Positions 1,002 through 60,255 of a DNA stretch of 64,000 nucleotides are shown piece by piece. Numbering within the stretch: position 1 is the first letter of the stretch; the number at the start of each line of letters is the position of its first letter. A model generated the notes under the pieces. The model did not search any database, had not been told where the DNA came from, and saw nothing but the letters and a program-made list of their open reading frames with translations. The position numbers and the translations under genes are program-made. This stretch comes from Pirellula staleyi DSM 6068 (GTDB taxonomy: Bacteria > Planctomycetota > Planctomycetia > Pirellulales > Pirellulaceae): assembly GCA_945875845.1 (NCBI GenBank), contig CAMCMB010000025.1:1-64000 (forward strand), written 5' to 3'.

Positions 1002-1703
1002 TCATTGTGCTGGAAGTTTCGGTCGACCGCGCGGGCGAAGTGTTGATTCGAGAGCCATCTTTTTGGCGGTTCTCACAATCCAAGCGTCGTCGCCGTAAGG
1101 GCAGCCTCTTTGAATCGATCGAATCACTTTAGCACGTATTTCGTCTGGCAATTCCGCGTCGAGCACGCGTGGCCAATCGCTTGGCAATGCCAACGGCGGA
1201 GACGAAACGATGGGGTCTGGGTTTTTAGTATGAGTGGGTTTATCGGTGCTCGCTGCTATGGATCGTCGAGCCGCGCTGGACCATTTCCATTCAAGAACCG
1301 AATTGCACAAGCCGCTTCGCTTGGGATGCGATTCAATGAACCGCATTATTTCGAGAAGCGACGCGTCATCTTGAACGGGGAACGAACGAAAGCGGCGTTC
1401 GTAAAGTCCACCTGTGCTCGCCCGTCTTGGATGCGTGTGCCAACGCGCCGAATGCGTGACAGTCAACCATGCAATCAGTTTTGACAAATCTCCGTCTCGG
1501 CGAGGCGTTAGGACCAAATGCCAATGTTTAGGCAACACGCAGTACGACAGCACACGAGGTTCGAATCGCTCGACTGCCTCAGCCAGAACAGTCACGAACT
1601 CTTCGTAATCCTCGTTTGATCGGAATATCCCTTTGGGCTGGAGTCCGCGACAAACCACATGGTAAACGTATCCGCCCAAACTGATGCGAGGTGGCCTACC
1701 CAT
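1002..1703 (-). CDS. REP-associated tyrosine (Y1/RAYT-type, IS200-like) transposase
   Basis: 233 aa; GYVYHVVCRGLQPKGIF, CVLPKHWHLVLTPRRDGDLSKLIAWLTVTHSARWH (HxH region) and FIESHPKRSGL are typical of Y1_Tnp/RAYT proteins. Confidence 0.88.
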   Translation of the reverse strand: MGRPPRISLGGYVYHVVCRGLQPKGIFRSNEDYEEFVTVLAEAVERFEPRVLSYCVLPKHWHLVLTPRRDGDLSKLIAWLTVTHSARWHTHPRRASTGGLYERRFRSFPVQDDASLLEIMRFIESHPKRSGLCNSVLEWKWSSAARRSIAASTDKPTHTKNPDPIVSSPPLALPSDWPRVLDAELPDEIRAKVIRSIQRGCPYGDDAWIVRTAKKMALESTLRPRGRPKLPAQ

Positions 1704-6056: not shown

Positions 6057-6250
6057 TTGGCGGCAGTCTGACAACTCGACGTGTAAGCGAGGTGCCAACT
6101 GCAATCCCTCGCTCACCGGGCTGTCGATATAGTGAAGTCGTTATTGGGTAAAGGGCGGTATGACGGACTTCCAAGTCCGTCAATGGAGAATGCGACGGAC
6201 TAGGAAGTCCGTCGTACCATTCAATCAACAGCCCGTCACGCGTCGGGTTA
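6057..6250 (+). repeat. Family A nested-palindrome element, copy A1 (core 6157-6218)
   Basis: Core acggacttccaagtccgtc...gacggactaggaagtccgt with flanks matching copy A2 (tttttggcggcag..., cgcgtcggg). Confidence 0.9.
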
Positions 6251-9459: not shown

Positions 9460-9479
9460 GCTGTGAGTTTTTGAATGGA

Positions 9480-9733
9480 CCGCTTTTTGGCGGCAGTTTG
9501 AAAACCCGTGCCCGTAAGCGAGGAGCCGACGGCAATCCCTCGCTCACCGGCTTGTTGCTTTCATGGTACGACGGACTTCCAAGTCCGTCGAATTCCCCAT
9601 GGACGGACTAGGAAGTCCGTCGTACCGCCCTTACCCAACAACGACTTCTCTAAATCAACAAGTCGTCACGCGTCGGGCAACCATAGCCGATCTGACGGAG
9701 AACGCGTTCTTTCGCGGAGCAAAGGGCAACGAT
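9480..9733 (+). repeat. Family A nested-palindrome element, near full-length copy A2 (core 9565-9626)
   Basis: Ends ccgctttttggcgg... and ...ggagaacgcgttctttcgcggagcaaagggcaacgat both recur, inverted, in copy A5. Confidence 0.9.
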
Positions 9734-9883
9734 AATAAATGTACAGCCCAGTCGTGATTTCAATGTCTAGCCTCGTTTTCGGAGCTTAAACAATTCACTG
9801 AATCAGAGTATTTCAGTTGGGAGCTATTCCCCACGCCCCCTCAGAGGCCGCCTTTTTCCGTTCGGATTTATTTGCAATTTCAA

Positions 9884-10015
9884 CGGGAGGACGAGGCTCC
9901 TGCCGAGCTTACGACGCAATGGTTCGGCAGGAGCCTCACCCTCCCAAGCAATCCATGGATTGGGCAAAGTCGAGGAAAACTTGTTGAGAGGGGTGGCCTC
10001 GCTCTCCCGTTTTCC
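9884..10015. repeat. Family B palindromic element, copy B1
   Basis: gggaggacgaggctcctgccgagcttacgacgcaatggttcggcaggagcctcaccctccc, followed by the outer arm gaggggtggcctcgctctccc. Confidence 0.88.
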
Positions 10016-13519: not shown

Positions 13520-13560
13520 TGAGCCGTTCCAGCCAGGCCAACTTAACCAATCCACTGTTC

Positions 13561-13684
13561 GGTGGGGTGAGGTCACCGCTGTAAACATGTTTTCCTCGAC
13601 TATTCCCAATCCATTGATTGCTTGGGAGGGTGAGGCTCCTGCCGAACCATTGCGTCGTAAGCTCGGCAGGAGCCTCGCTCTCCC
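13561..13684. repeat. Family B palindromic element, copy B2
   Basis: gggagggtgaggctcctgccgaaccattgcgtcgtaagctcggcaggagcctcgctctccc, preceded by an outer arm with gtaaacatg. Confidence 0.88.
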
Positions 13685-13727
13685 ATTGATTTCCGATGGT
13701 TCGACATGGGAAAGATGTTTAGAGCGG

Positions 13728-20164: not shown

Positions 20165-21606
20165 TGGTCATTTCGTTGAGCGCAACCGTCGAAAACAGGG
20201 ATGAGAATCGTCGCAGGTTCTTGGGGCGAAGCTCACAGGGGCTTGGTGCGCTGGCACTTGCCGCCCTGTTGCAACCGTCGGTGCTGAAGGGTGCGGATGT
20301 TTCTGGACAACAGGCTGAGGGATCGTTACCACAAAAAGCCAAGCGTGTGATTTGGCTCTCGATGGCGGGTGGTCCTTCGCAATTCGAGACCTTTGACTAT
20401 AAGCCAAAGCTTGCGGCGATGAGCGGCCAGCCGATGCCGGAAAGTCTTACCAAAGGGCAACAACTTGCGCAGCTCCAAGGGCAACAGCTCCTATGCCTGG
20501 GTCCTCAGTTTCCATTTTCAAGATTCGGAACGTGCCAAACTGAAATCAGCACTCTGTTTCCTCACATTGGATCCGTGGCCGACGACATTTGCTTGATCCG
20601 ATCGATGACGACCGATGCCATCAATCATGATCCAGCCCACATGTTCATGAATACTGGATCGCAGATCGCAGGCCGGCCCAGCATGGGTTCGTGGGTTACC
20701 TACGGTCTAGGCAGCGTCGCCGAGAATCTTCCCGGATTTGTTGTGCTTGTTTCGACTGGCAAGGGCCGATCACCACAGCCGATCGCGGCCCGCCAATGGA
20801 GCAGCGGATTCTTGCCAAGTCGACATCAAGGCGTGCAGCTTCGAAGTCATGGGGATTCAGTCCTTTATCTCGGCAACCCGAGCGGTATCACTCGCGACCA
20901 ACAAGACCTCGACGTGCGTGCCATTAACGAGCTCAATCGTTTTCAGGACTCGCAAGAGTACGACCCTGAGATTGCAACTCGAATTGCACAGTACGAAATG
21001 GCGTTTCAGATGCAAGCAAGTGTTCCAGAGCTCATGGACATTCGCAACGAATCGAGAGATACGCTGGAACTCTACGGTTGCCAAGCGGGGGATGGTTCGT
21101 TCGCCAGCAATTGTTTGCTCGCTCGACGACTTGCTGAACGCGGAGTTCGATTTATCCAACTCTATCACCGCGATTGGGACCATCATAGCTTGCTGAAACA
21201 AGAACTCCCGTTGCGTGCAGCCGAAGTGGACCGCGCATGCGCAGGGCTGATCCAAGATCTAAAAAACAAGGGGATGTTTGAGGAAACGCTGATCGTTTGG
21301 ACAGGCGAGTTTGGGCGAACACCCATGTCGCAAGGGGACAAAGGCCCCATCGGTCGCGATCACCATAACAAATCCATGTCCATGTGGTTAGCCGGCGCGG
21401 GAGTCCGGGGGGGCCAAGTGTACGGAGCAACGGACGAACTCGGTTATGCAGCCGTCGAGAATGTTTGCACCGTACATGATCTTCATGCGACAATGCTCCA
21501 TCAACTCGGTATTCAACACGATTCGTTTAGTGTGAAGTTTCAAGGCCTTGATGCAAAGCTCACCGGCGTCGAACACGCAAATGTGCTGCATGATATTCTT
21601 GTTTAG
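20164..21606 (+). CDS. DUF1501 family protein (copy 1)
   Basis: TAATG overlap with the upstream PSD1 gene; RRRFLGRSSQGLGALALAALL Tat-like leader; WLSMAGGPSQFETFDYKP; GEFGRTPMSQ.GRDHHN. Confidence 0.93.
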   Translation: MVISLSATVENRDENRRRFLGRSSQGLGALALAALLQPSVLKGADVSGQQAEGSLPQKAKRVIWLSMAGGPSQFETFDYKPKLAAMSGQPMPESLTKGQQLAQLQGQQLLCLGPQFPFSRFGTCQTEISTLFPHIGSVADDICLIRSMTTDAINHDPAHMFMNTGSQIAGRPSMGSWVTYGLGSVAENLPGFVVLVSTGKGRSPQPIAARQWSSGFLPSRHQGVQLRSHGDSVLYLGNPSGITRDQQDLDVRAINELNRFQDSQEYDPEIATRIAQYEMAFQMQASVPELMDIRNESRDTLELYGCQAGDGSFASNCLLARRLAERGVRFIQLYHRDWDHHSLLKQELPLRAAEVDRACAGLIQDLKNKGMFEETLIVWTGEFGRTPMSQGDKGPIGRDHHNKSMSMWLAGAGVRGGQVYGATDELGYAAVENVCTVHDLHATMLHQLGIQHDSFSVKFQGLDAKLTGVEHANVLHDILV

Positions 21607-21630
21607 TCGAACCCCTTTTGGATTTCCAAG

Positions 21631-23049
21631 ATGAATAACGTTCCTTTATCAAATCAAAGTCGCAGATCGTTTCTCGGCCAAACTTCGCAAGGAGTTGGAG
21701 CGGTAGCCCTTGCAACGATGCTGAATTCGGCGAGTGTCCAAGCTGACCCGGTTCGCGGCGTTCTGGCAACTTTGCCATTGCCTCAGCGGGCCAAACGCGT
21801 CATTTGGTTGTCGATGGCAGGTGGGCCATCGCAGTTGGAAACGTTTGATCCAAAGCCCAAGCTTGCCGAGATGCATGGCCAACCTATGCCCGAGAGCTTC
21901 ACGAAAGGGCAACAGCTTGCCCAGCTTCAAGGTCAAAAGCTGAACTGTTTTGGGCCTCAGCATCCGTTTGCCAAGTTTGGTCAGAACCAAGTCGAAATCT
22001 GTTCGTTGTTTCCTCAGATTGGGTCGGTCATCGATGACATTTGCTTGATTCGATCGATGACAACCGAAGCCATCAACCATGACCCAGCCCATATGTTTAT
22101 GAACACCGGTTCTCAGATTGCCGGACGACCGAGTATGGGAGCTTGGGTGACTTATGGGCTAGGGAGCGAATCGACAGACCTGCCGGGTTTCGTTGTCCTT
22201 ACTTCGTTGGGCAAGGGTGGGCAGAACCAACCCATTGCCGCGAGACAATGGAACAGTGGATTTTTGCCGACGCGATATCAAGGTGTCCAACTGCGAGGCA
22301 AAGGGGATTCAGTGCTGTATCTCAACAACCCGCCCGGCATTAGTCGCGATCAGCAGGGAAGCGACGTAGCCGCCATCAATGCGTTGAACGTTCAACAACA
22401 GGCGATGCAGGATGACCCTGAGATAGCGACGAGAATTGCTCAATACGAAATGGCTTTCCGCATGCAAGCGAGCGTCCCGGAACTGATGGACATCCGCGGA
22501 GAGGGCCCTTCGACATTGGAGCTGTACGGATGCCAACCAGGGGACGGTTCATTTGCAGCCAACTGCCTACTGGCTCGCCGTTTAGCCGAACGAGGCGTTC
22601 GCTTTATTCAACTGTATCACAAGGATTGGGACCATCACGGGGGTGTGAAAGAGGGCGTGGCGCTCAAGGCACAAGAAATTGATCGAGCCTGCATGGCGCT
22701 CATCACCGACTTAAAGCAACGCGGCATGTTCCATGACACGCTGATTGTCTGGGCAGGCGAGTTTGGCCGCACTCCAATGTCCCAGGGTGGCAATGGGCGT
22801 GATCATCACAACAAGGCCATGACGGTATGGCTGGCTGGTGCGGGCATTCGCGGTGGCATCGTTCATGGAGCCACGGATGAACTGGGGTATGCGGCCGTCG
22901 AAAACGGTTGCACGGTTCATGACTTGCATGCCACCATGATGCATCAACTAGGGATTGAGCACGATTCGTTCAGTGTCAAATTTCAGGGGCTGGACGCCAA
23001 GCTGACCGGCGTAGAGGGCGCCAACGTGATTCGCGAAATATTGACCTGA
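21631..23049 (+). CDS. DUF1501 family protein (copy 2)
   Basis: RRSFLGQTSQGVGAVALATML; near colinear with copy 1 along its length. Confidence 0.93.
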   Translation: MNNVPLSNQSRRSFLGQTSQGVGAVALATMLNSASVQADPVRGVLATLPLPQRAKRVIWLSMAGGPSQLETFDPKPKLAEMHGQPMPESFTKGQQLAQLQGQKLNCFGPQHPFAKFGQNQVEICSLFPQIGSVIDDICLIRSMTTEAINHDPAHMFMNTGSQIAGRPSMGAWVTYGLGSESTDLPGFVVLTSLGKGGQNQPIAARQWNSGFLPTRYQGVQLRGKGDSVLYLNNPPGISRDQQGSDVAAINALNVQQQAMQDDPEIATRIAQYEMAFRMQASVPELMDIRGEGPSTLELYGCQPGDGSFAANCLLARRLAERGVRFIQLYHKDWDHHGGVKEGVALKAQEIDRACMALITDLKQRGMFHDTLIVWAGEFGRTPMSQGGNGRDHHNKAMTVWLAGAGIRGGIVHGATDELGYAAVENGCTVHDLHATMMHQLGIEHDSFSVKFQGLDAKLTGVEGANVIREILT

Positions 23050-23050
23050 T

Positions 23051-23127
23051 AGCGATTAGCGATTAGCGATTAGCGATTAGCGATTAGCGATTAGCGATTA
23101 GCGATTAGCGATTAGCGATTAGCGATT
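23051..23127. repeat. 7-bp tandem repeat (agcgatt x11)
   Basis: Perfect heptamer array starting just after the DUF1501 stop codon. Confidence 0.95.
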
Positions 23128-23139
23128 TGAAATTTGAAA

Positions 23140-23172
23140 TTTGGTTTGGTTTGGTTTGGTTTGGTTTGGTTT
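23140..23172. repeat. 5-bp tandem repeat (ggttt, ~6 copies)
   Basis: ttggtttggtttggtttggtttggtttggttttt. Confidence 0.9.
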
Positions 23173-38332: not shown

Positions 38333-38351
38333 ATGTTGAAATTATTTTGGT

Positions 38352-38475
38352 TGACTCACCGGACGGCTCGCGCCGTTCCGCTACCCAATGTTCGCGGCAG
38401 GGGCGCGAGCCCTCCGGTGATGGCCCAAGCATTTTTTCACAGCCTTGGAGCGAAAGGCGACGATCATAAAATCAC
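38352..38475. repeat. Repeat family C palindrome, copy C1
   Basis: tcaccggacggctcgcgccgttccgctac ... ggcgcgagccctccggtga; tail gagcgaaaggcgacgatcataaa resembles the end of family A copy A2. Confidence 0.78.
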
Positions 38476-38527
38476 AGCCTCTTCCGAAAACGCCCCGTCG
38501 CCTCATTTGGAAAATAAATAAGACCCT

Positions 38528-41866: not shown

Positions 41867-41903
41867 GCGAAAGGAGACTGCTGATTTAATCCGCATTAAT
41901 CCC

Positions 41904-42049
41904 AACCCGACGCATTACGGTTTGTTGATTTGATGGTACGACGGACTTCCAAGTCCGTCGAATTCCCCATTGACGGACTTGGAAGTCCGTCCTACCGCCC
42001 TTAACCAATAACGACTTCATTAAATCAACAGCCCGTAGCGCTTCGGGTT
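41904..42049 (+). repeat. Family A nested-palindrome element, copy A3 (core 41935-41996)
   Basis: aacccgacgcattacgg...acggacttccaagtccgtc...gacggacttggaagtccgt...ccgtagcgcttcgggtt. Confidence 0.9.
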
Positions 42050-42330
42050 GTGATCGAGCCTTTGCTTGTAGCAAATCCAATAAATCAGCAGTCTCTAAAA
42101 GGGCGAGGGAAGGAGGACTCCAAAAGCTGTAGAAGGAGTAAAGAATCGTAAAATAGAAAAAATACCCCGGCCAGGTGCAATGAGGCGGACACTGCACACT
42201 GGCCGATGGGGTACTCTGCGGTCGGCGAACCGACGCAAATCCATTTGGACTCATGCTTTTAGATCGAAGCATCGAGAGCGTGGAGCTGTGGGTTTAGTCC
42301 ACAAGCTCCGCCACTCAGTCGACGTTGGGT

Positions 42331-44934: not shown

Positions 44935-45091
44935 ACAGCCGAAACAAGTCAAAGTAGTAGGCACATTCCATGTGCCGTCCACCTGGAATAAAGTAGTAGG
45001 CACATTCCATGTGCCGTCCACCTGGAATCTTGGCAAACGCCCAAGTGCGAACGGCACGGCGGAGCGTGCCTGCTACTTTTGTCGGCTGTGT
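44935..45091. repeat. Family D element: 39-bp direct repeat x2 inside long inverted arms
   Basis: aaagtagtaggcacattccatgtgccgtccacctggaat twice; outer arms cacagccga...aaagtagtaggcac / gtgcctgctacttttgtcggctgtg. Confidence 0.88.
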
Positions 45092-46458: not shown

Positions 46459-46572
46459 GTAGCGGAACAGCGTTTGTAGCGGAACAGCGTTTGTAGCGGA
46501 ACAGCGCAAGCTGTCCGGTGAGGATTCGCAAATCACTTGGGAATTCACCGGGCGGCTCGCGCCGCTCCGCTA
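46459..46572. repeat. Repeat family C element, copy C2, with tandem tgtagcggaacagcgtt units
   Basis: Left arm tagcggaacagcgcaagctgtccggtga; right arm tcaccgggcggctcgcgccgctccgcta. Confidence 0.85.
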
Positions 46573-46652
46573 TAAGAACAATGGTTCCATCCGAAAGGGA
46601 GTCCCACTCGCTTGCATATCCGACTTTACCAATTCCCTCAAATCTAAGTATT

Positions 46653-50696: not shown

Positions 50697-50881
50697 GGGA
50701 GGGCGAGGCCACCCCTCTAAACATCTTTGCAATGGCGAATGCATTGGAAACCATCGGGAGGGCGAGGCTCCTGCCGAGCTTACGACGCAATGGTTCGGCA
50801 GGAGCCTCACCCTCCCAAGCAATGAATTGGTTGGGCAAGGCCTAACAAAACATGTTTACAGGAGTGGCCTCACCCTCTCGC
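50697..50881. repeat. Family B element, full-length copy B4 (double-nested inverted repeat)
   Basis: Outer arms gggagggcgaggccacccctctaaacat / atgtttacaggagtggcctcaccctctc; inner arms cgaggctcctgccga / tcggcaggagcctc. Confidence 0.9.
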
Positions 50882-54969: not shown

Positions 54970-55075
54970 CGGTGGTGGGTGGTACGACGGACTTCCAAGT
55001 CCGTCGATGGGGAATTCGACGGACTAGGAAGTCCGTCGTACCAATAAACAACAGCCCGCTAGCGCGTTGCGGCTT
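54970..55075 (-). repeat. Family A nested-palindrome element, copy A4 (core 54981-55042)
   Basis: ggtacgacggacttccaagtccgtcgatggggaattcgacggactaggaagtccgtcgtacc. Confidence 0.9.
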
Positions 55076-60001: not shown

Positions 60002-60255
60002 ATCGTCGCCTTTTGCTCCCGAGAAAGAACGCGTTCTCCGTCGGATAGGCTGTGGTAACCCGTGCCCGTGAGCGCGGGATCGCAGTCTGCCCTCGCCTAC
60101 GCGGCTTGTTGCTTTAGTGAAGTCGTGATTGGGTGAGGGCGGTAGGACGGACTTCCAAGTCCGTCAATGGGGAATTCGACGGACTTGGAAGTCCGTCGTA
60201 CCATTGAATCAACAAGCCGTACGGGCACGGGTTATCAAATTGCCGCCAAAATCAA
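60002..60255 (-). repeat. Family A nested-palindrome element, near full-length copy A5 (core 60141-60202)
   Basis: Same ends as A2 in inverted orientation: agaacgcgttctccgtc... and ...acgggcacgggttatcaaattgccgcc. Confidence 0.9.

Follow-up and report, generated by a model that had tools for sequence, protein, structure and literature searches.

What is the nested palindrome of about 250 bp at positions 9480–9733, and why is it met again elsewhere in the same DNA? The window analysed here (the whole stretch, 64,000 nucleotides) comes from contig C25; the source genome comprises 7.0 Mb in 149 contigs. The initial annotation described a single nested element with five copies, A1 to A5. These copies are real: the palindrome motif was matched 11 times in the window against 0.05 matches expected from shuffles, ten of the 11 matches form five pairs, and A2 and A5 match from end to end in opposite orientation. 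What had been taken for one element of ~250 bp is instead a unit of 118 bp lodged in older palindromic repeats, and the outer hairpins that had been counted among its parts belong to surrounding repeats which differ between copies and encase only some of them. The nested look arises because a mobile element was inserted into the middle of older hairpin-forming repeats. With a probability of roughly 0.88, we read the unit as a 118-bp MITE that prefers short palindromic targets inside other palindromic repeats and duplicates 4 bp of the target. The features in the window are given below.

9548..9665, + strand: A2, intact 118-bp element (inverted repeat, palindrome pair, asymmetric arm, inverted repeat)
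9544..9547, no strand: left 4-bp target duplication of A2, TCAC
9666..9669, no strand: right 4-bp target duplication of A2, TCAC
9570..9621, + strand: palindrome pair of A2, two 20-bp palindromes with a 12-nt spacer
9471..9543, no strand: older host repeat of A2, left half, TTTTTGGCGGCAGTTTG... with the GTAAGCGAGG...CCTCGCTCAC hairpin; outside the mobile unit
9670..9740, no strand: host repeat of A2, right half, ...GCGTCGGG...AGAACGCGTTCT...
60102..60219, − strand: A5, intact element of 118 bp, flanked by the direct repeat TACG (60098–60101 and 60220–60223)
6117..6235, − strand: A1, 119-bp element; direct repeat TCAC at 6113–6116 and 6236–6239
41918..42035, + strand: A3, element without an exact target duplication
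41873–42096: host of A3, another repeat, with ends GGAGACTGCTGATTTA
about 54970..55060, − strand: A4, decayed copy that retains the palindrome pair and the left inverted repeat but not the right arm

Only the inner ~118 bp is common to the window copies. Outside it, one repeat surrounds A1, A2 and A5, a second contains A3, and A4 has half of a third. The reading of A1 as an internally flipped version was dropped, as A occupies the host repeat in either orientation. The ends of the A3 host share an inner TGATTTA box with the A ends. In the whole genome the exact palindrome GACGGACTTNNAAGTCCGTC was found 350 times (reversed-pattern control, 0). Palindrome pairs numbered 75 in 1.66 Mb of own-genome sequence, and extrapolation from these would put the genome-wide copy number at about 300.

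With the copies aligned on the palindrome pair, the unit reads CGGCTTGTTGATTTAATGGTAC, palindrome 1, GAATTCCCCATT, palindrome 2 and NTACCGCCCTTACCCAATAACGACTTCACTAAATCAACAAGCCG. Its ends are CGGSYTGTTGATTTA and TAAATCAACARSCCG, the end of A-type elements being written as the pattern [CG]GGSYTGTTGATTTA, and it is bounded by a 15-bp terminal inverted repeat, CGGCTTGTTGATTTA, with 15 paired columns and 88% of cells paired across 60 copies. The right arm is asymmetric. Length is exactly 118 bp in 63 of the 75 own-genome elements, and the 32-nt spacing of the palindromes (12-nt spacer) is exact in 41 of 42 first pairs. The 5′ tag of the hairpin is GGTAC in 68/75 copies and GGTAG in one. The A2 pair can alternatively be folded as one 25-bp stem with GGTAC/GTACC flanks; REP1/REP2 variants, examined as support for one long stem, showed no consistent pairing. 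The motifs ccgctttttggcgg, acccgtgcccgt and agaacgcgttct fall outside the unit and belong to other repeats around only some copies. At 118 bp, non-coding and in about 300 copies, the unit has the short multicopy form of a MITE.

Exact 4-bp direct repeats flank 42 of the 75 own elements (shuffled mean 8.5, maximum 19) and 37 of the 67 A copies (shuffled mean 7.5, maximum 16); about 45% of copies carry no exact duplication. The duplicated words are chiefly CTAG, TTAC/GTAA and TCAC/GTGA. In four independent loci (L059 = L078, L095, L098, L103) excision of A together with one 4-bp copy brings back, with no gap, a sister element of subfamily A′, which has the ends and length of A and a different interior (116–118 of 118 positions aligned, 113–117 identical).

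The sequence around the duplicated 4 bp is symmetric over about 3 bp: flanking bases 1, 2 and 3 are complementary in 36, 35 and 25 of the 42 sites, respectively, and the fourth in only two. The preferred target is a short palindrome, XYZ-NNNN-Z′Y′X′, of which the central 4 bp are duplicated, mostly in the form CGC-N4-GCG and also as GCG-CTAG-CGC and GGG-CKMG-CCC. As hosts of the 67 A copies, we found the 'E' hairpin (AACCCGACGC-GTAA-GCGAGG...CCTCGC-TTAC-GCGTCGGGTT) in 33 cases, the 'B' repeat (...ACG-CTAG-CGC...) in 30 and other sequence in four. Empty host copies are few (six E, about four B-like), and the notion of 'B' repeats as a large free-standing family is weakened by there being only about four B-like copies without A. 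Since E or B sequence is present at most targets, the palindromy of a target is to some extent confounded with its sequence; several targets other than E and B are also symmetric, and unrelated targets in relatives (e.g. GGG-CGAG-CCC) are similarly so. A symmetric target with a duplicated centre is the outcome expected if a transposase dimer cuts with a 4-bp stagger; a preference for extruded hairpins would look the same. Insertion occurs in either orientation and is intergenic: the element centre falls in an ORF of ≥200 aa (a crude stand-in for gene calls) in 2 of 75 cases, though such ORFs cover 77% of the DNA.

Filled and empty orthologous sites could be compared at A1, A2, A4 and A5, with A3 excluded by a synteny break. 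Two of the four, A2 and A5, are empty in both of the closest relatives, G016 and G014 (flank identity 86–91%), so inheritance has not been uniformly vertical; at A5 the whole nested block of ~265 bp is absent. In the same two relatives the A4 site holds a different palindrome and the A1 site is occupied by an A copy that is oppositely oriented and lacks the outer shell. Some A copies of G016 are missing here: L284 of G016 has an A element where L237 of this genome, in the same spacer, has a GTAG-type palindrome. Intergenic spacers may be hot spots for different palindromic elements. Only six sites are shared with G014/G016 orthologues (about 96% identity), too few to assess post-insertion constraint. 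The exact palindrome, with its 350 occurrences here, was found 22, 17 and three times in three congeners, twice in one family member and zero times in the remaining relatives searched. Copy number is patchy, and the 118-bp element is lineage-specific. The nearest sampled relatives match, among the matches listed, public MAGs labelled Pirellula. A 31-mer scan of named genomes gave no match, and a 20-mer scan gave, among the matches listed, mostly planctomycete MAGs or genomes and two MAGs labelled Kuenenia.

Terminal inverted repeats, target duplication, a non-coding multicopy unit and both filled and empty sites are thus all present, as in a MITE. The combination of a 4-bp duplication with inverted repeats points to a DDE enzyme, from what is established for insertion sequences. 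A putative DDE-type transposase encoded elsewhere would recognise the inverted repeats, cut the target with a 4-bp stagger and move the element in trans. Target palindromes of the preferred kind occur in the stems and centres of other palindromic repeats, sister elements included, so that repeated rounds of insertion build concentric palindromes. Matches to PF01609 and PF13751 were few, and the flanks inspected around them did not contain the element's ends; PF13701 was also rarely matched, and none of the three families yielded an autonomous partner. A long element with the same ends was not found in the sampled DNA. These absences are weak evidence, as the sample covered about a quarter of the genome. 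Y1_Tnp was rejected as the mobiliser, since none of its 19 matches in the genome was linked to the 118-bp element (about 1.5 kb searched on each side).

The same ends also enclose other interiors. In the congener G020 the palindrome is absent, and elements with these ends carry AACCCGAAGCG-type or CAGTCAGCC-type hairpins; they are mostly 118 bp long, are flanked by 4-bp duplications such as CTCG and CGAG, and an element of this kind folds better than shuffles (z = −11.9). The length exceptions among same-ended elements are 113–119 or 127 bp. Apparently unrelated interiors, at least three in number, occupy one frame: the palindrome pair and the hairpins of AACCCGAAGCG and CAGTCAGCC type. Automatic sorting of interiors mixes A′ with similar E-type interiors, and the per-type counts are unusable. 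We put forward tentatively, as somewhat short of an even chance, that one transposition system in the genus moves a size-locked frame of ~118 bp with exchangeable hairpin 'cargo' and lands preferentially in the hairpins of fellow elements, giving concentric palindromes. Such a frame would consist of inverted repeats GGSYTGTTGATTTAAT, a large hairpin beside one end and an arm of ~28 nt beside the other, and new interiors may be acquired from targets. Several interiors are related to E, so common descent may account for part of the shared length.

Among the alternatives to a MITE, a structured RNA or terminator family with a fold maintained by the host is unlikely. The unit does fold far better than shuffles (z = −8.5), as the initial annotation had anticipated, its palindromes are 97–98% conserved among copies versus 85% for the right arm, and convergent gene pairs exceed divergent pairs, about 20 to 13. 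A strong fold is, however, expected of a palindrome, and the conservation gradient is confounded: subfamily sites account for part of it, as does seeding the search with the palindrome, and the rest could reflect host constraint or a correction of one palindrome arm by the other. At the position that follows palindrome 2 the base is close to random (commonest base 39%). The suggestion that compensatory change keeps an RNA family intact found no backing: pairs changed on both sides numbered 5 against a shuffled mean of 5.5, and none lay within the local palindromes, a comparison that is not informative in itself because the helices hardly vary. A scan of the window gave no Rfam match, and the unit is absent from most congeners and from the sites orthologous to A2 and A5 in relatives.

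Stem-loop replacement as proposed for IS1272, in which an existing palindrome is replaced without target duplication, is quite improbable. Some flanks are inverted rather than direct (e.g. GTAA...TTAC at L214:17071), and the different palindrome of the relatives at A4 would suit an exchange of this kind, but non-palindromic inverted flanks are not enriched (two observed versus 4.2 expected from shuffles), direct repeats lie above every shuffle and the target is restored whole in the four excision loci. The pattern is not that of IS1272-type inverted-repeat replacement.

The weakest reading treats the two palindromes as a REP doublet moved by a RAYT (TnpA-REP), with outer arms that are merely target palindrome. 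It can draw on the inverted doublet of 20-bp palindromes with its constant 12-nt spacer, on the 19 Y1_Tnp matches and on REP dimers known inside palindromes of other organisms (PMC3733652), but is hardly credible given the GGTAC tag, a palindrome near the gene at 0 of the 19 Y1 loci (two ~3.2-kb loci carry it at the far edge, about as expected from its genome-wide density) and 4-bp duplications that lie outside the arms, so that the arms move together with the pair. Of the hallmarks of a REPIN, the inverted REP pair is present, and a GTAG-type tag, a REP-flanked RAYT and the lack of a target duplication are missing. The HUH mechanism of REPINs leaves no target duplication. The initial proposal of a dispersed, non-coding, non-autonomous MITE-like element holds, and REPIN membership falls on the 4-bp duplications, the lack of a matching RAYT and a tag that is GTAC, not GTAG.

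Other repeats were recorded in the course of this work. A Y1_Tnp (RAYT-like) gene at window positions 1002–1703 adjoins a GTAG-type palindrome (GTAG-GCACATTCCATGTGCC) at 922–965, which recurs at 44951–45028 as a perfect 39-bp tandem; the two are likely to form an ordinary REP/RAYT system separate from the 118-bp element. Another abundant palindromic repeat, GGCTGTGAA..TCACCGGACGGCTCGCGCC..GGCGCGAGCCGTCCGGTGA..TTCACAGCC, is found at 38350–38490 and 46540–46580 and at L251 (contig C41), where one copy encloses a gene for a DDE-type transposase, with imperfect ends AATGRTACTCA. A third repeat, about 130 nt long and likewise dispersed, contains GGGAGGACGAGGCTCCTGCCGAGC and has three window copies, at 9880–10009, 13560–13698 and 50742–50880 (86–88% alike). 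An array of the 7-bp unit TAGCGAT occupies 23036–23147, and two tandem paralogous genes (start to start about 1452 bp, about 75% DNA likeness) occupy 20338–23039.

No published description of the 118-bp element was found in the literature searched, which lacks most subscription journals. Self-nesting, together with a constant frame of ~118 bp in which the interior varies between subfamilies and species, is unusual. Serial MITE insertion can explain a puzzling class of nested palindromes in planctomycete genomes, and the order of the insertions can be read from them. That 118 bp stays constant across interiors hints that transposition may demand a certain physical size or fold.

Prokaryotic MITEs have been reviewed (Correia/NEMIS, RUP, Nezha, Chunjie and ERIC; PMC10969869). 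The present element resembles them in being shorter than 500 bp, non-coding, intergenic and hairpin-forming, with terminal inverted repeats and a target duplication; unlike them, it is mostly nested in other palindromes, its 4-bp duplication has symmetric flanks, its constant ~118-bp frame holds varied hairpin interiors and its parent IS was not found in the sampled DNA. Correia and RUP elements duplicate TA. With REPIN/RAYT (TnpA-REP) systems the element shares an inverted doublet of short palindromes and a high copy number, and it departs from them in its 4-bp duplications, in the lack of a RAYT linked to it at the 19 Y1 loci and of a GTAG tag. REP dimers within palindromes that are never found alone have been described in Anabaena (GTAG-15) and Halothiobacillus (CGTC-1) and read as target-palindrome insertions (PMC3733652). 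An inverted palindrome pair inside a longer palindrome, not found alone, is common to both cases, whereas the outer arms here are element ends with target duplications and the tag is GTAC; the outer arms of those published dimers may also be element ends. IS1272 (IS1182 family) transposes by replacing palindromes or stem-loops (PMC5678879); the preference for palindromic targets is alike, but here the target is duplicated (4 bp), not replaced. In Coxiella, QMITE2 is a target of IS1111 (PMC10969869), so that mobile DNA likewise enters a palindrome belonging to another mobile repeat; the invader in that case is an IS and its target a MITE, whereas here MITEs enter MITEs repeatedly.
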